Positions 14,688 to 34,958 of a stretch of 36,341 nucleotides of DNA are shown here, one piece after another. Origin of the DNA: Saprospiraceae bacterium (GTDB lineage: Bacteria > Bacteroidota > Bacteroidia > Chitinophagales > Saprospiraceae); the NCBI GenBank assembly GCA_012031785.1, contig JAAUTG010000010.1, forward strand, positions 1 through 36,341, written 5' to 3'. The position numbers and the translations under genes were made by a program. Each line of letters starts with the position of its first letter. Position 1 is the first letter of the stretch. The notes under the pieces are model-generated. The model was not told where the DNA came from, ran no database searches, and was given only the letters and a program-made list of their open reading frames with translations.

Positions 14688-15791
14688 TTATAGCTCATCA
14701 TCAAATGCAGGTACTAATCTTTTTTGCTTTCTGTTGAAGAACTTTTATGAGTTGATGTGTAGAATTAAATCCTGCCGCGATAGCCACATGGTGCATGTCA
14801 GAGTTCACTTGTAGCATTTGCTGAGCCATTTCGATGCGAAGTTCCTGAATCCAAGCAGATACTCGGTGCTTGCGGTGCTGCCAAACACTTTCACGGATGT
14901 ATTTTCCACCACATGCTGCGACTTTGGCAAGGTGCAACGTACCCAATTCTGGATTGCTTAGCAAATGCCCATGCTGTAAAGTAGTTTCTAAATCCTCAAC
15001 AAGCGCAGACAAATCACTTTGAGGCTTCAACCGTCGAGTTTCCAAAAAAAGTTGGATATCTTCCCTAAATACAGCATAACCTAACCAGAGCAACATCCCC
15101 GCAAACGCCAAAATCTCCAAAAAAAGAAAATCCAGGTGCATCATATAAATTGAGGTTAAAAAAACGATAAGCAATAAAATCTACTAGCGCAAAAAAACTA
15201 TACACAGCTCCTAACACACTAAGTCGTTTAACGGTTTTTCGCAGCAAAAAAGCCTTTTTCTTCTCCCACTCTTGCCCTTTGTAGCGCAATCTAGCATTTT
15301 GATACCGCACGTACCGATAGGCAAGCGACAAATACACAAAGAAAAAAACTAAAAAAAAGTGCGTATTCAATGGGTCCATAGTAAGGTCGAATAAAGTCTT
15401 GCCAAATTTGATACTGATTTTCAGGTGCTTGTAAACCAATACTGAATACCAATACAAACTGCATAACTGGAAGAATCAAATGCTTAAAGTCAGTAGGCCG
15501 AAATTGATAAATCGGGAAAAGTGAAAATTTAACATGGTAAAAAAACAAGGGTCCAAAAGACAAGGTAAACCAAAATGGCAAATGATAAACATGTAAGGCA
15601 TTCTCAAACCATTGTACGCGCAGCAACCATACATCTAAGGCACTCAGTCCGAACGTAAACAGCAGAAATCCCAAAGCCACATTCGCCAAGCGATTCCCAC
15701 GATTTCTTATAAACATAAATAGCCCAATCACCAGCCCTTGTACTGCACTGAATAGTAATAATGACAACACCAAAAACTGGATGATTTCCAC
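14688..15791 (-). CDS. Membrane-anchored AraC-family regulator, three frameshifts
   Basis: A transcription factor with a membrane sensor half and a C-terminal AraC DNA-binding domain, 366 residues after correction. The N-terminal half has about seven hydrophobic helices, beginning FLVLSLLLFSAVQGLVIGLF, a layout common in Bacteroidota. The linker is basic (RYKGQEWEKKKAFLLRK). The C-terminal domain has LAKVAACGGKYIRESVWQ as the first helix-turn-helix and VAIAAGFNSTHQ as the second. Three single-base excesses disrupt it, at the A-runs 15351-15358 and 15119-15125 and at the T-run 14743-14746 (plus-strand letters). Removing the last restores the normal end FFNRKQKRLVPAFDDEL. The signal sensed is unknown, and it probably controls itself or a neighbour. 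Confidence 0.85.
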
Positions 15792-25849: not shown

Positions 25850-27405
25850 ATGGATGGTGTAAAAATCCTGTGGGCAGATGATGAAATTGATTTACTAAAA
25901 CCCCAGTTATTGTTTTTAGAAAAAAAGGCTACCAAGTCATCACCGTGACCAACGGATACGACGCGATGGAAGAATGCGAGAGCAACAACGATATAGATGT
26001 TGTTTTTTTAGATGAAAGTATGCCTGGTTTAACAGGACTTGAAACCTTACAGCAGATTAAATCTAAATATCCACACTTGCCAGTGGTAATGATTACAAAA
26101 AATGAAGCAGAAGATGTGATGGAAGAAGCAATCGGTGCGCAAATTAGTGATTACCTGATCAAGCCTGTCAACCCAAATCAAATTCTGCTCACGCTAAAAA
26201 AAATCATTGACAACAAGCGGCTGGTAAGAGAAAAAACTTCTGCTGACTATCAGCAAGAGTTTCAGCAGATTTTCATGCAAATCAGTGGCGGCTTGAATTA
26301 TGAAGAATGGGTGGAAACCTATCGAAAAATAATCAGTTGGGAACTTAAAATTGATGCTTCTAACTCTACGGAGATGGCTGATATTTTGGCGATGCAAAAA
26401 AGTGAAGCCAATAAAGAGTTTTCAAAATTTATCATCAAACACTACAATGATTGGGTACAGGATAAGAAAAAAGGTCCCCTCTTGTCAAATGATTTGATGC
26501 GCAACAAAATATTTCCACACGTCAATGATGATATTCCTACGGTCATGTTGCTCTTGGACAACCTGCGCTACGACCAATGGAAAGTGCTAGAACCCATTAT
26601 CACTGAACTATTTAGAGTAGAAGAAGAAGATTATTTTTACAGCATCTTACCCACTTCTACCCAATATAGCCGAAATGCGATTTTTTCTGGACTAATGCCT
26701 TTGGATATTGAGGCTTACTATCCTGATTGGTGGAAAAACGATTCAGAAGAAGGCGGAAAAAACCTCCACGAACACGATTTACTCGACCACTTAGTAAATA
26801 GACTAATTCGCCGCGACGTGAGGGTGGACTACCTGAAAATTACCAACGTGAATCAGGCGAAAACCATGCAAGAAAATATTTATAACTACCTGAATAACGA
26901 CCTCGCTGTGATTGTGTATAACTTTATAGATATGCTCTCCCATGCCCGTACTGAAATGGAAGTGCTCAAAGAATTGGCTGGCGACGAAACCGCTTATCGC
27001 TCCCTAACCAAGTCTTGGTTCATTCATTCTCCACTTTGGGCAGCACTTCAAAGAATTGCAGAACGCGATGTGCAACTTATTATCACTACTGACCACGGTA
27101 CCATCCGAGTCAACACCCCTTCTAAAGTGGTGGGTGACAGAGAAACCACTACGAACCTACGCTACAAAGTAGGACGCAACCTTCAGTACGACCGCAAGGA
27201 TGTGATGGAAGTGAGAGATCCAAAGCAAGCGAAATTGCCGCGACCTAACGTTAGTTCTACTTTTATTTTTGCGAAAGAGGATAAGTTTTTCTTGTATCCA
27301 AATAATTACAATCACTACCATAATTATTACAAGAATACCTTTCAACACGGTGGCATTTCTTTAGAGGAAATTATTTGTCCTATCATTCGGTTACGCTCGA
27401 AATAA
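25850..27405 (+). CDS. porX: PorX, response regulator with PglZ domain, one frameshift
   Basis: Two-component response regulator that controls type IX secretion genes in Bacteroidota. The ATG at 25850 gives MDGVKILWADDEIDLLKPQL, the family start. The frame then breaks in the A-run 25920-25926, where one A is missing; correction continues KKGYQVITVTNG. The corrected length is 518 residues, matching P. gingivalis PorX (about 518 from memory). The receiver domain has the acidic pair ADDE, the phosphorylated Asp55 in VVFLDESMPG and the lysine in DYLIKPVNP. The C-terminal PglZ (alkaline-phosphatase-like, zinc) domain shows VMLLLDNLRYDQW, LPTSTQYSRN, TTDHGTIRV and FQHGGISLEEIICPI. Its partner kinase PorY is not in the window. 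It is monocistronic. Confidence 0.94.
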
Positions 27406-28390: not shown

Positions 28391-29434
28391 TCACTCTATC
28401 CCTTCTAACAAAGCAATATATGTGGCTATTGCCTGTGCTATTTCTTCCACAAAAATATATTCATCGGCGGTGTGTGAGCGAGCAGAATCGCCGGGACCGA
28501 TTTTCAGGGTTGGAAACGGCATCAAAGCTTGGTCAGAAAGTGTGGGTGAACCATAGTGCGCAAGCCCTAAAGCTTTGCCTTTTTGCACTAAAGGATGAGT
28601 TAAAGAAATGCTGGAAGAATTAAGGCGAAAAGAGCGAGCTGTTACTTGAGATAGGAGATGCTGTTGGATAATTTCAAACACAGCTTGATTAGAATAGCAC
28701 TCATTGGTACGGACATCTATTACAAAAGAACATCGGTCTGGCACCACATTATGCTGCGAGCCAGCTTGAATTTGTGTAACCGTCATTTTGGTTGCGCCAA
28801 GCAAAGGAGAAACCTTTTCAAATTGATAATCCTGAATCCATGCAATATCTTGAAGTGCCTTATAAATGGCCTTTTCCCCTTCATTTCTTGCTGCGCTGTC
28901 CCGACTGTCCATGTGCAACAGCATCTATCACCATTAGTCCTTTTTCTGCCACTGCCATTTGTATCATCGTAGGCTCTCCCACTATTCCAAAAGCAATGTC
29001 ACCCAATTCGGGCAGCAGCAATGTCATACCGTTTACACCAGAAATTTCTTCCTCCGCGCTTGCCGCAAAAATGAGGTTGTAATTCCCAATAGTTTCGTAA
29101 AAGTACAAAAAAGTAGCCAACAATGCTACTAAAGCACCTCCTGCATCGTTACTTCCCAACCCATACAGTTTGCCAGCTTCCAAAGTTGGTGCAAAGGGGT
29201 CTCTAGTATAGCCGATGCTCGGCTTGACAGTGTCGTGGTGAGAGTTGAGTAAAATAGTGGGTTTGGTGGGGTCGAAATATTTATTTTTAGCCCAAACATT
29301 ATTTTGTAGTTGTTGTGCTTCTACTCCGCTTTCGCGTAGATAAGCGGCGATAAGTTCAGCAGTTGCAGCTTCTGCTTTAGAAAAGAAGGTGTTGCAATGA
29401 GTGATTGCAGCAAAGTGATGGCGGACGCTACCAT
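28391..29434 (-). CDS. M20 family deacylase (ArgE/DapE-like), two frameshifts
   Basis: A zinc amidohydrolase related to acetylornithine deacetylase and succinyl-diaminopimelate desuccinylase, 347 residues after correction. The start at 29434 gives MVASAITLLQSLIATPSF. One T is missing at the run at 29381-29384 (minus strand), after which SKAEAATAELIAAY resumes. The metal site is seen in SHHDTVKPSIGYTRDPF and GSNDAGGA, then AEEEISG, GEPT and a late HTADEY. A second indel, an extra base at 28896, splits AHGQSG from HAARNEGEKAIYKAL. In Bacteroidota this type usually works in arginine synthesis, but no arg or dap gene is present, so substrate is open. Confidence 0.87.
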
Positions 29435-29644: not shown

Positions 29645-32032
29645 TTATTCCTCGCTCAAAATCATAGATTTAGTGATGACTTTATCTTCTGTTTGTAAGC
29701 GATAAAAGTACATTCCGCTAGGCAAATTGCTGGTATCATCAAATTCTAGCTCGTTAGTACCTTCCTCAAATTCTCCTGTTTTTTCGTACAACACTTTCCC
29801 ATCCATATCTAGGACAGACAAAGTGGCTTTCATGCGTGCTGGTAACGAAAACTTAATCACCGTGAAACCACTGAACGGATTTGGCGAGTTAGTTAATGTG
29901 TAAAGCACCTCTTGTTCACTCGTGTTTCCTCTATTTTCTACGTTGCTACCGTCTGCCAAGTTGCTGCCGTTGCATGTGCCTGTTCTCCACGACTTGACCC
30001 CCGCTATTCTTGCGGCACAAGGATTGTCGTAAGTTTGGTTATTGCAACCACAAACTGGATTATATTCTAACGTACACAATGTCTCACCAGAAGATTCCCC
30101 TACGCAAGCTTCGTCACAGCTAGGAATCACGATTTCTACCATGTCCAAGTGGCAACATACTGCAGTATAATCACCTGTGCGTCGCTTCAAGACAGGCATA
30201 ACCATAATTTTAGTACCTGCTGTCAATGGTAAAGCGCATCCTTCTAGTCGCAAAATAATGGTTTGAGGTCCAGAAATAATGCCAGATAATTTAGTCACGT
30301 TGTTACAACCCCTAAACCCAATACCAGAAGGAGAAACAAGAATAAAATCTATTTCTAAGTTACTTGCAGTTGCATCGTAGATAGGATTAGTGTAAATGTC
30401 ATACGTATTGTTCAAGGTGAAAGTCACGTTAGCAAACTTTGGATCGTTCTCACACACTACATCTATATCTGTAATCTCGCCGCAAGGATGTGCAGGAGCG
30501 CAGATTCTCTTGCAGCAGATTTGGTAACAACGAGTCACTGGGTCGTAAATCAAGGCGCTGATTAAGTAACACTTACCCGCAGGCGGCAGTGCTACAAAAA
30601 TATTGGTCACGCCACTACCTAAGTTAGCGCCATTTGTGTCATTCGTCCATCGAATCACGTTGGAAGCCAATACTCCACTCAACGATAAGTTGAAACCACC
30701 TTGTGTTGGATTGACGATGATTCTATCGCAAGCAAATGGGTCGTTGATGCACACTTGGCGGCAGCATCTGACTTTACAACCATTTTGGTCAGTGTATTCG
30801 TAGCAAATGTTGTAAGTACCAAATGCTGGGAAGGTGAAGTCAATGGTGTAACCGTTGCCGAGTGTCGTTTCGTTAGCACCGTAGTTACCTCCTGTGGCAA
30901 ACCATCTACCTGATGGAATATTATTTGGCACACTGAACTGGTAGCGCAATGAACCCGATGAACCCGAGTAGCTAAAGTTGATTTTATCGCAATTGTTGTC
31001 CACTGGTGGGCAGTTGTTGCCGCATATTTTTTTACAACAAATACGATAACAACCTGTGGATGGGTCATAGTATTTTACACTGATGTTGTAACATACGCCA
31101 GTTGGTGGAACTGGATAACTGATGCTGGTACTTCCACTGCCTGCAATCAGTTCTCCTGTGTCGTCATTTCTCCATTCTAGGATATTTTGAGCAGAAATAC
31201 CCGGCAGATTGAAGCGATATTGGTTTCCGGATTGGGTAACAGAAAGCGCATTACAGTTGGATGGATCAACAATACATAACGTTTTGCAGCAGGAGATTTC
31301 ACATCCTCTACTGTCTATGTATTTGTAACAAACCGTAGTTGCTCCACCCGAAGATGGATAATCTACATTGACAGACCTAGCGTTTTGTACGCGAACGACT
31401 TGAGTGGTGTACTTAATTTCCCAATTTCCAATTGGAAAAGATGTAGGCACTGAAAAGTTGTAACGAATCACTCCATTAAAATTACTTACAAACTTGTAAG
31501 CAACATCTTGACAGTTGTTGTTAGGTTGAGGACAGTCGTCCCCACAACCACCGCAGCTATTGTCACACTTGACCAATAACTGAAACTGCGAACGCTGTTC
31601 ATTGTTACTACCATCAATCACGATGTAATAAGTACCTGACGCTCCGTTGATGTTAATCAGCTCATTACTATTGCTTGGATTGATACTCTTGGCTGTGCAG
31701 GATGCGTTCGCAGAACAACCTCTGAAAATAAATAAATCCAAATCTTTACTCATTCCCGCTAAGGAAACAGTAAGACTAGAATTGGCTGGCACATCTACTC
31801 GATAGACGACCTCGCAAGAGTTAAAAGGATTAATGCTGGTATTCACACCAGAAAGGCAGCTCCCATAATTTTGGGCTTGTAAGATGTTGCCAGTGTCAAA
31901 GTTGTTGAAAGATACCGTTTGACCACACTGAATGAGTCTCGCTTTTGAGCAAAAATCTGTTTGCGCATTGACTGTACAGATGGACGTCCAAAATGCCATC
32001 AGTAAAATCAGTCTTGATAAAAATGTTTTCAT
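29645..32032 (-). CDS. Secreted cysteine-rich protein with Kazal and T9SS sorting domains
   Basis: A 795-residue secreted protein from the ATG at 32032 (MKTFLSRLILLMAFWTS, cut after VNA). Parts in order: a PPC-like beta domain (about 55-160; DLDLFIFRGC, GTYYIVIDGSN); four alternating modules A-B-A-B (about 170-515), each ending in CY, an acidic turn, GC or RC, and CCxxxC (CCKTLC, CCKKIC, CCRQVC, CCKRIC); a further beta domain; a Kazal-type motif CTLEYNPVCGCNNQTYDNPC (about 652-687); and a type IX sorting domain (TNSPNPFSGFTVIKFSLP and SGMYFYRLQTED). It should be exported by T9SS and attached or released at the surface. The Kazal part suggests protease inhibition. Adhesion is possible. An upstream in-frame ATG at 32056 is less likely. 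Confidence 0.9.
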   Translation of the reverse strand: MKTFLSRLILLMAFWTSICTVNAQTDFCSKARLIQCGQTVSFNNFDTGNILQAQNYGSCLSGVNTSINPFNSCEVVYRVDVPANSSLTVSLAGMSKDLDLFIFRGCSANASCTAKSINPSNSNELININGASGTYYIVIDGSNNEQRSQFQLLVKCDNSCGGCGDDCPQPNNNCQDVAYKFVSNFNGVIRYNFSVPTSFPIGNWEIKYTTQVVRVQNARSVNVDYPSSGGATTVCYKYIDSRGCEISCCKTLCIVDPSNCNALSVTQSGNQYRFNLPGISAQNILEWRNDDTGELIAGSGSTSISYPVPPTGVCYNISVKYYDPSTGCYRICCKKICGNNCPPVDNNCDKINFSYSGSSGSLRYQFSVPNNIPSGRWFATGGNYGANETTLGNGYTIDFTFPAFGTYNICYEYTDQNGCKVRCCRQVCINDPFACDRIIVNPTQGGFNLSLSGVLASNVIRWTNDTNGANLGSGVTNIFVALPPAGKCYLISALIYDPVTRCYQICCKRICAPAHPCGEITDIDVVCENDPKFANVTFTLNNTYDIYTNPIYDATASNLEIDFILVSPSGIGFRGCNNVTKLSGIISGPQTIILRLEGCALPLTAGTKIMVMPVLKRRTGDYTAVCCHLDMVEIVIPSCDEACVGESSGETLCTLEYNPVCGCNNQTYDNPCAARIAGVKSWRTGTCNGSNLADGSNVENRGNTSEQEVLYTLTNSPNPFSGFTVIKFSLPARMKATLSVLDMDGKVLYEKTGEFEEGTNELEFDDTSNLPSGMYFYRLQTEDKVITKSMILSEE

Positions 32033-32486: not shown

Positions 32487-32530
32487 TAAAGTGCGATGCC
32501 TGAAGCGGTGCGCAAGCAATTAAATTGAAT

Positions 32531-32576
32531 GGGAATGATTTGTGGAAAAAGAAAAATCGCTGCCACAAACCATCCC
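32531..32576 (+). promoter_or_regulatory. Stable leader hairpin of the TonB receptor gene
   Basis: The arms gggaatgatttgtgg and ccacaaaccatccc pair over 13 bp with one bulge and one A-C mismatch around a 17-nt A-rich loop. It lies inside the predicted leader and ends 27 nt before the start codon at 32604. The position suggests translational control. It does not match a known riboswitch. Confidence 0.5.
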
Positions 32577-32603
32577 CCAACCATTTACACCAACAGTAGG
32601 TCT

Positions 32604-34958
32604 ATGAGAAAATATTGGATCATTAGTTTCTTCTTTTATGCTGGACTAAGCATGGCGCAGTCTGCTACTTTACAAGGCATCATCACGGATGCTGAAAACG
32701 GGACTGCACTGCTATCAGCGACTATCGCAGCAGGAACAATCGGCACTACCAGCGATGAAAATGGAGCTTATCAACTAGAGCTTGCTGCTGGAAAACATAT
32801 CGTCACGTTTAGTTACTTGGGATACGATGCTTATGAATTGGTCATAAATTTATCAGACCAAGAGGTAAAAGTTTGGAACGTTGCCTTAGAACCACAAAGT
32901 ACGCTACTTCAAACCACCACCATCACTAGTGGGCGTTATGAAAAACCACTCAGCGAAGTGACTATATCGCTAGAAGTGTTGAAGCCGACGCTATTAGAAA
33001 GCAACAATACCGTTAATATCTCTAGCATCCTGACCAAAGTACCAGGAGTGAGTATTATTGATGGACAAGCCAACATTCGTGGAGGTTCTGGCTACTCGTA
33101 TGGTGCTGGAAGTCGCGTCTTGCTTTTGGTGGATGATATTCCAATTTTGAGTGCTGACGCAGGTTCATCCAATTGGCGTGATATTCCTGTTGAAAATATT
33201 GAGCAAATAGAAGTGGTAAAGGGTGCTGCCTCTGTACTTTATGGTTCTTCTGCCTTGAACGGGGTCATTAACGTCCGCACTGCTTATGCTAAATCCGAGC
33301 CGATTACGAAAATTGCCAGTTTTTCTACCTTATTTTTCAAGCCTAAAGAAAAAGAACTCGCTTGGTGGGACACTCCACCAGTTCAATTTGGCAGCAGCGT
33401 CAGTCATCGTAGAAAACTTGGTAAAGTAGATTTGGTGTTAGGGGCTTTATATTCCAATGAGTCAGGGTTCATTAAGGACGAAACACCCAACGCAGAGCAG
33501 CCTGGTACTTTTAGACGTTATGGTCGTTTCAATAGTAACGTTCGCTACCGCATCAACGACAAGCTATCTGTTGGTTTCGCCACGAACTTCAATCGTGGGT
33601 CTAGTAAAGATTTTTTCTTTTGGAAAGGCATCAACGATTTATACACCGGCGCGGTGTCCACGATTTCGGAAGGCACGCAATGGCGATTTAATATTGACCC
33701 TTTTGTGACTTACTTTGATGCAAAAGGCAATCGCCACAAACTATTGGGTAGATATTACCAAATTGATAACGAGTTCAATAACGACCAATCGAATGGTTCT
33801 AAACTTTACTACGGCGAGTATCAGTTTCAACGACAGTTTGAGCAGATTGGCGTAGTTACTACGGCTGGCTTAGTCGCTACTGGTTCTACCACCCAAGCTG
33901 CACTTTACGGCGAAAGCGAATATCAATCCTTGAACACTGCTGTTTACTTACAAGCAGATAAAAAATTCTTTAATCGCTTAACGCTTTCTACAGGATTTCG
34001 ATACGAACGCAACACCATCAACAACGATCTTTTCTTTGATGCTTTTTCTGGACAAGAAGTTGCTGCTAACGACAACCAAGAGGCAAAACCCGTTTTCAGA
34101 CTTGGTAGTAACTACCAAGTCGCCGAAAATACATTTTTACGCGCTTCTTTCGGACAGGGTTATCGCTTTCCTACGGTGGCAGAAAAATTCATTTCAACTA
34201 CCATTGCAGGAGGTATTCGCGCTGTTCCGAATATTGATTTACAATCCGAATCAGGTTGGACAACAGAGGTAGGCGTTAAGCAAGGTTTTCGAATTTCTGG
34301 TTTTGAAGGGATTATAGATTTTTCAGCTTTTTGGTCAGAGTATCAGGACATGATGGAATTTAATTTGGCATTCAACCCCAGCAGTTTTCAAATTGGATTT
34401 CAATCTCAAAACGTAGGAGATACTAAGATTCAAGGCGTTGAGTTAACCGTTGCTGGTAGAGGGAGTTTGTTTAACTTCCCAACCACACTTTTGGCTGGCT
34501 ATACTTTCATTGAACCTACCTTCAAGGAGTTTGACCTTGCAGGTAAGCAACTCTCTTTAAATAATCTAAAAGATGCACCTATTGGACAATTCAATGCTTG
34601 GAGTTCTTCGTCTTCTGAAAATGTGCTCAAATATCGTTTTCAGCATTTGTTTACTTTTGATGCAGAAACCAACATCAAGATGCTTTCTCTTGGTGTAGGT
34701 GCTTCTTACAATAGCAATATGGAAGCCATAGATGCCATCATACAAGCCGATGACCGTTTTGTACCAGATGCGAATGATTTTAGGGCAAAATACGACAATG
34801 GGTTTTTTCTTTTATCCTTCAGAGCTGGCTATAAACTTGGTGCGCATTTCAAAATTTTAGCTCTTTTGAATAATGCGCTCAACACGGAGTATTCCGTGCG
34901 TGTAGGGGTTATTGATGCTCCTAGAAATGCTTCTTTACGAATGGATGCTGTTTTTTAA
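32604..34958 (+). CDS. TonB-dependent receptor with carboxypeptidase-regulatory domain
   Basis: An outer-membrane transporter of 784 residues, energised by TonB. The ATG at 32604 gives the signal peptide MRKYWIISFFFYAGLSMAQ, cut before SATLQG; an earlier in-frame ATG (32529) lies in the leader hairpin and lacks a signal. Residues of about 20-105 are the CarboxypepD_reg-like domain (LQGIITDAENGTALLSATI to FSYLGYDAYE). The plug domain follows, with LTKVPGVSIIDGQANIRGGS, VLLLVDDIPI and IEQIEVVKGAASVLYGSSAL, then the 22-strand barrel. The C-terminal residue is Phe (MDAVF), as in outer-membrane beta barrels. The substrate is not clear; siderophore or vitamin receptors of this layout exist. No SusD-like partner is adjacent. 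Confidence 0.92.
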   Translation: MRKYWIISFFFYAGLSMAQSATLQGIITDAENGTALLSATIAAGTIGTTSDENGAYQLELAAGKHIVTFSYLGYDAYELVINLSDQEVKVWNVALEPQSTLLQTTTITSGRYEKPLSEVTISLEVLKPTLLESNNTVNISSILTKVPGVSIIDGQANIRGGSGYSYGAGSRVLLLVDDIPILSADAGSSNWRDIPVENIEQIEVVKGAASVLYGSSALNGVINVRTAYAKSEPITKIASFSTLFFKPKEKELAWWDTPPVQFGSSVSHRRKLGKVDLVLGALYSNESGFIKDETPNAEQPGTFRRYGRFNSNVRYRINDKLSVGFATNFNRGSSKDFFFWKGINDLYTGAVSTISEGTQWRFNIDPFVTYFDAKGNRHKLLGRYYQIDNEFNNDQSNGSKLYYGEYQFQRQFEQIGVVTTAGLVATGSTTQAALYGESEYQSLNTAVYLQADKKFFNRLTLSTGFRYERNTINNDLFFDAFSGQEVAANDNQEAKPVFRLGSNYQVAENTFLRASFGQGYRFPTVAEKFISTTIAGGIRAVPNIDLQSESGWTTEVGVKQGFRISGFEGIIDFSAFWSEYQDMMEFNLAFNPSSFQIGFQSQNVGDTKIQGVELTVAGRGSLFNFPTTLLAGYTFIEPTFKEFDLAGKQLSLNNLKDAPIGQFNAWSSSSSENVLKYRFQHLFTFDAETNIKMLSLGVGASYNSNMEAIDAIIQADDRFVPDANDFRAKYDNGFFLLSFRAGYKLGAHFKILALLNNALNTEYSVRVGVIDAPRNASLRMDAVF

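Follow-up and report, generated by a model that had tools for sequence, protein, structure and literature searches.

The window, a stretch of 36,341 nucleotides from a genome of the family Saprospiraceae, encodes a protein in which four cysteine-rich modules stand between domains that Pfam can name. What are these modules, why do two forms of them alternate, and what might such an array do outside the cell? Our working answer, to which we give a probability of about 0.5, is that the protein is a disulfide-stapled surface stalk exported by the T9SS, here presenting a Kazal-type inhibitor.

Features of the gene are collected in Table 1. A second in-frame start is possible at a TTG eight codons 5′ of the ATG. 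The 795-residue product contains 49 cysteines, 25 of which lie within residues 170-515. PPC, Kazal_1 and Por_Secre_tail each score above their own Pfam cut-offs in this protein, while searches with the whole protein, with single modules and with region C placed nothing above cut-off between residues ~170 and 640. Region C, for which Pfam gave no family, has a CCH and cysteines of its own and is present behind the array in several paralogs of the genus.

Table 1. Features of the array gene, in window coordinates
Feature	Residues	Coordinates	Strand	Basis or remark
Whole gene	795 aa from ATG	29645-32032	minus	open reading frame
Signal-peptide-like N-terminal stretch	1-23	31964..32032	minus	judged by eye from sequence
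PPC domain	76-140	31613..31807	minus	Pfam 40.1 bits vs cut-off 25.9
Module A1	173-254	31271..31516	minus	PKD-related by profile; Cys 174, 235, 244, 248, 249, 253
Module B1	259-337	31022..31258	minus	Cys 260, 314, 328, 332, 333, 337
Module A2	347-429	30746..30994	minus	Cys 348, 410, 419, 423, 424, 428
Module B2	435-511	30500..30730	minus	Cys 435, 488, 502, 506, 507, 511
Region C	516-640	30113..30487	minus	comparable region after array in some paralogs
Kazal-type domain	643-687	29972..30106	minus	six-cysteine span; Pfam stretch 652-673
T9SS type A sorting domain	717-791	29660..29884	minus	

The gene lies beside a Pfam-confirmed TonB receptor gene (32529-34958). On its other side a frameshift splits an M20 peptidase gene (28391-29183, minus) into two frames, one with the M20 part (28881-29183 and upstream) and one with the dimerisation part (28391-28924). 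Three overlapping frames on one strand at 14701-15791 (minus) suggest more frameshifts or assembly errors in the contig. About 2.2 kb from the array gene, at 25945-27405 (plus), is a gene for a receiver and PglZ protein, which is also the domain make-up of the T9SS regulator PorX.

The first-pass annotation had described an A-B-A-B array with regular cysteine-rich ends, and this was confirmed: modules in that order span residues 173-511, and each closes with CY..[GR]C-xxx-CCxxxC. The CCxxxC motifs are found at residues 248, 332, 423 and 506, and the four module ends read CYKYIDSRGCEISCCKTLC, CYNISVKYYDPSTGCYRICCKKIC, CYEYTDQNGCKVRCCRQVC and CYLISALIYDPVTRCYQICCKRIC. In 20,000 composition shuffles of residues 170-515, four CCxxxC motifs never occurred, nor did two or more full module ends in 20,000, which rules out chance as the source of the pattern. 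The annotation was right about the cysteines of the module ends but had overlooked a sixth conserved cysteine, at the start of every module; six per module and one extra (C341) account for the 25 of this region. Its pairing of like modules also held in single BLAST comparisons, with 32% identity over 85 columns for A1 and A2 (E 6e-17) and 43% over 79 columns for B1 and B2 (E 3e-23). Module A1 aligns with B1 as well, at 28% identity over 67 columns (E 9e-7).

To assess the kinship of the two forms, we took the window protein and 13 others, encoded by 12 loci in the same genus and family, and kept their modules of 66 residues or more. With the window protein and its closest paralog supplying the seed profiles, these sorted into 31 A and 44 B modules, with one ambiguous row dropped. 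Aligned by hhalign, the 31 A and 44 B modules match over 76 of 83 columns with a probability of 98.2% (E 4e-14) and a score of 69.8, compared with 21.9 for the best among 50 column shuffles. This profile-profile alignment rules out A and B as independent domain types and, by sequence profile, makes them one homologous family. The earlier division thus survives as two alternating forms, not as two unrelated kinds of module.

Profiles also connect the A modules to a named domain. Five Pfam-called PKD_4 repeats from one genome of the same order served as the reference; hhalign related A to them with a probability of 94% (E 1e-7) and a score of 39.8 (best of 30 shuffles, 11.7), and the result for B alone was not significant (8%, score 18.7, best shuffle 15.1). 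Among 20 single A modules, nine match PKD and eight PKD_4 weakly, with best E-values of 0.0016 and 0.0014. One paralog, L039, exceeds both cut-offs when taken whole (PKD_4 52.7 vs 27; PKD 38.4 vs 23.5), scores that sum over its A modules with no lone stretch above cut-off; seven other array proteins scored beside it did not reach the PKD cut-offs, and neither the window protein nor any of its single modules reached the Pfam gathering cut-off for PKD. The hallmark motif of the PKD domain is WDFGDG. It is absent from the window modules, where NWEIKYTT and RWFATGGN stand instead, and because these modules fall below the PKD cut-off and lack the motif we file them as PKD-related and not as PKD members.

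What the A modules have in common with PKD (PF00801, PF18911) is the W region, the F-strand G-T-Y-x-V-C, the N-G-C turn and the G strand. The PKD_4 repeats of the same-order genome have four of the six array cysteines (start, VC, GC and one of CC), and to these the A modules add two, the other C of CC and the last C. Another family, Bact_surface_Ig-like (PF16403), weakly matches 11 of 20 A modules (best single-module E 0.0019) over a segment confined to ~25-30 residues at the module end, and the whole L038 protein is barely above its cut-off (27.9 vs 27). No named family was found for B alone in Pfam as searched. The first-pass annotation had recognised no family for any of the modules, expecting that a clear Pfam hit of each would overturn it. 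That view is upheld for B and for the single modules of the window, none of which scores above cut-off; it gives way for A, which by these profile comparisons is a cysteine-rich PKD relative, and to which B is homologous.

The modules had been called beta-type units, and the structure prediction agrees. An AlphaFold2 model of A2-B2 (16 rows) is all beta, with a pLDDT of 93.7 and a pTM of 0.83. Foldseek found no PDB match to it at E <= 0.001, and its top rows are mostly tandem Ig/FN3 domains; at rank 8 (E 3.5e-3) is a fragment of GhpA, the grappling-hook protein of Aureispira (PDB 9flw), a resemblance at fold level. VIA-align gave Z up to 8.4 over ~80 residues, near background for such models, with beta-glucuronidase first and then mostly FN3-type receptor domains. 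A viral library returned eight matches at E <= 0.001, mostly generic phage structural proteins. The A2-B2 tandem is predicted to be nearest to Ig/FN3-type sandwiches. In a longer model of residues 168-640 (12 rows, one of them shortened since its B module had aligned to region C), module blocks score mostly 72-92, two blocks, one where the model begins and one between B1 and A2, drop to 53-56, and those of region C lie at 45-67. With a pTM of 0.43, this model gives no prediction of how the four modules are arranged, and so none of a straight rod.

The array is not peculiar to this gene. Three more array loci occur in the same genome, on contigs C106 (63% identical over the array), C156 and C122, and arrays are present in all three other genomes of the genus. 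An initial contig scan used an A-B alignment of six rows; it matched 109 stretches, none of which was confirmed. At family level, where only the top candidates per genome were scored, the A-B profile is matched in 86 of 398 genomes and in 35 of 112 genera. The order, counted with the family's members, has 102 matching genomes of 298, and the phylum seven of 395. Among the matches listed, coverage of at least 150 of the 160 positions is found only in Saprospiraceae, and those outside the family are partial, reaching from inside A up to A plus the start of B. Thirteen loci with a named source comprise ten from Saprospiraceae and one each from Neolewinella aurantiaca, a Chitinophagales MAG and an uncultured Bacteroidetes MAG. 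No description of the array itself was seen among the open-access PMC papers listed.

Architectures vary around this core, with two to 13 modules per open frame. In eight frames of the genus, some of them incomplete, PPC, Kazal (Kazal_1 or Kazal_2) and the T9SS tail are each above cut-off in five; just below it are the tail of L041 and the PPC domain of L040. Outside the genus, PPC is above cut-off in three of six proteins and the tail in three, with two more tails below, and Pfam found Kazal in none of the six. Pfam found no Kazal either in the genus proteins L039, L042 and L045; L045 does match a Kazal pattern, and the L039 frame stops before the expected site. Kazal-like stretches are visible by eye in L016 and L048.

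The two forms alternate strictly in the window protein, L038, L039, L041 and L042, and also in L051 and L053 of another genus, each with A-B twice. Within the window's genus, L043 and L044 have one A ahead of two to five B. The successive B modules there mostly lack the GC Cys, show a Cys ahead of strand F that is two alignment columns earlier, and have their last Cys shifted to C[ND]P[YF]xC. Some paralogs are not intact as sequenced. In the closest one, L038 (C106, 2276-5047), the PPC part is broken into three frames and the module part is open; the frame upstream of it resembles a TonB receptor by eye. The open frames of L039 (C156) and L040 (C122) stop short of T9SS tails that lie downstream in other frames (C156 8149-8373; C122 5612-5842), so that these genes look broken or misassembled.

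Cysteines co-vary between neighbouring modules, an observation that is new relative to the first-pass annotation. Within A modules, the last Cys and the GC Cys are linked (four-way counts 20/16/0/11, p 0.001; p 0.076 on the 43 pairs described below), and if the modules are Ig-like sandwiches, the end of each adjoins the FG loop of the following one. On these two grounds the last Cys of a module was tested against the cysteines of the next one. In 37 A-B pairs, the last Cys of A and the GC Cys of the next B gave counts of 16/0/4/17 (both, the A Cys only, the B Cys only, neither; p 6e-7). A larger set drew on all loci and both strands, requiring more than 25 bits and more than 80% of the profile for both modules and a linker of fewer than 16 residues, and counting pairs identical over residues 16-115 once; it comprised 43 pairs, which came from 28 sources counting the window. 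Here the counts were 20/0/6/17 (p 2.4e-7), which ranks first of 78 cysteine-column pairs, the next best having p 0.0067. In the A2-B2 model the last Cys of A is residue 84, at the end of strand 76-85, and the GC Cys of B is residue 158, which begins the strand after the 154-157 loop.

The association holds with one pair per source (12/0/4/12, p 7e-5), within the genus (12/0/1/9) and outside it (8/0/5/8, p 0.007). One pair, from L016, is probably B-B, as is the L087 row of alignment A4; without L016 the 43-pair test gives 20/0/6/16 (p 4.8e-7). When the tree was inferred with the cysteine columns left out, both traits showed six changes on it, and none of 5000 simulations of independent evolution reached the observed association. 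Together with the per-source and genus splits, this rules out shared descent as its sole cause. Six B modules have the GC Cys without a partner Cys in A. Four of these six have an extra Cys two residues before GC, compared with none of 20 partnered modules (p 0.001, a value from the same data in which the pattern was first noticed), and the other two are without the CxC.

From this co-variation we predict an inter-module disulfide between the last Cys of A and the GC Cys of the next B, which the residue positions in the A2-B2 model fit. The link between these two columns inside A, weaker on the 43 pairs, counts against it. B-to-A pairs (n=9), on which a second staple would bear, vary little in their cysteines. 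Within modules, our guess, with weak and partly conflicting support, would be that the start Cys pairs with the first C of CC and the strand-F Cys with the second. Also against the staple, VKOR and DsbB were found in none of the four genus genomes, though these export very cysteine-rich proteins; DSBA is found in three of the four.

Judged by its tail, the window protein is T9SS cargo: the tail scores 51.4 against a cut-off of 23 with TIGR04183 and 45.5 against 27 with PF18962. The genome has 132 matches to such tails, and SprA_N is above cut-off there, in pieces on two contigs. The annotation's picture of an extracellular, cysteine-rich fold that recurs along the protein and is combined with PPC, Kazal and sorting domains is borne out. 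The Kazal_1 match scores 26.9 bits against a cut-off of 21, and residues 651-684 align with residues 14-47 of the ovomucoid third domain, reactive loop included; by this alignment the P1 residue would be Leu655. Compared with the classical domain (PF00050), the window's copy is a compact variant with CGC, placed in a large T9SS surface protein, and is a putative inhibitor. Across ten Kazal stretches found by pattern in proteins of the genus, P1 is L, S, R, Q, R, L, L, T, D and P; the pattern does not pick up the Kazal_2-type stretches in L044, a protein of 2183 aa. Such a spread suggests inhibitors facing different proteases. Pfam found no Kazal domain in any of the six array proteins from beyond the genus, so displaying an inhibitor cannot be what the array does in general; we infer that the array is best read as a stiff surface stalk, with inhibitor display a local use here.

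A mechanism can be proposed as follows. One PKD-like ancestor would have given rise to four beta-sandwich modules in two alternating forms, which together make a rod. In each module the start Cys, the strand-F Cys and the CC would probably form two disulfides. Strand G of A ends next to the linker with the last Cys of the module, which is probably bonded to the GC Cys that the next B carries in its FG loop, at the same pole; the candidate staples in the window protein are C253-C328 and C428-C502 and, by extension, C337-C419. Such covalent stapling of neighbours would render the rod stiff and protease-resistant outside the cell, where it would hold region C and the Kazal domain, with its predicted P1 Leu, outward, while the C-terminal tail would export the protein and anchor it at the cell surface. 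As a working role, the displayed serine-protease inhibitor may shield the cell surface or secreted proteins. The array itself, the homology of A and B, the domain content and the cysteine co-variation are established by the analysis; the fold is a prediction, and we infer the disulfides, the stiffness and the protease inhibition. If stalks are stapled in this manner, each form would supply one half of the staple, which would explain why A and B alternate.

Other readings were weighed against the stapled stalk. The array protein might instead be an adhesin whose modules or PPC domain bind a polymer, a cell or prey, the Kazal domain being accessory or a structural cysteine knot. This is the main rival, a credible, if tentative, alternative. 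It fits the lack of Pfam Kazal outside the genus and the varying companion domains within it (DUF11 in L040 and L041, a sub-cut-off CBM_4_9 in L045), and it draws on the GhpA fragment in the fold search: PMC11205867, in passages that leave GhpA unnamed, describes ixotrophy in which prey flagella are caught on hooks formed from a T9SS-secreted protein. Yet PPC aside, no binding domain is above cut-off in the window protein, and the GhpA match is no better than those to fibronectin; when the A and A-B profiles were compared with PDB sequences, GhpA was not among the matches listed.

Exported Bacteroidota proteins commonly have PKD and Ig-like spacers, and the array could be a passive spacer of this kind, its cysteines guarding against proteases with no bond between modules. 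The widely varying number of modules per frame would suit a spacer, but the co-variation from neighbour to neighbour would not, and we consider this reading unlikely. That the cysteines are metal sites (CCxxxC with GC and the start Cys) and not disulfides seems to us quite improbable. Metal binding by cysteine clusters occurs in other proteins, and the lack of a VKOR or DsbB oxidase in the four genus genomes would agree with it. The window protein is exported, however; the strongest co-loss links a cysteine of one module to a cysteine of its neighbour at a shared pole, four of the six partnerless GC modules have gained a nearby Cys, and the module-end alignment contains no conserved His and a single conserved Asp (YxD of B).

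If the stapled stalk is correct for the window protein, the broader proposal would be that Saprospiraceae build such stalks, the end of each PKD-derived module being disulfide-bonded to the loop of the next, and display inhibitors or binding domains on them; we advance this wider claim with some reserve. A load-bearing role would fit the report in PMC2862302 of PKD domains in polycystin-1 whose mechanical strength exceeds predictions. The predicted staple bears on how T9SS surface stalks are stiffened.

Ig modules of Gram-positive pilins and adhesins are beta-sandwich stalks hardened by isopeptide or ester crosslinks, whereas the array has predicted disulfides, placed between neighbouring modules. 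If the proposal is true, stapled stalks would parallel, on the Gram-negative side and by means of disulfides, the isopeptide-hardened pilus stalks of Gram-positive bacteria. The A-B profile is found across so many Saprospiraceae genomes, and yet B is nameless in Pfam, that a large set of exported proteins has gone undescribed in this family. In the genus of the window, the varied P1 residues of the Kazal domains suggest a range of surface inhibitors directed at different proteases.
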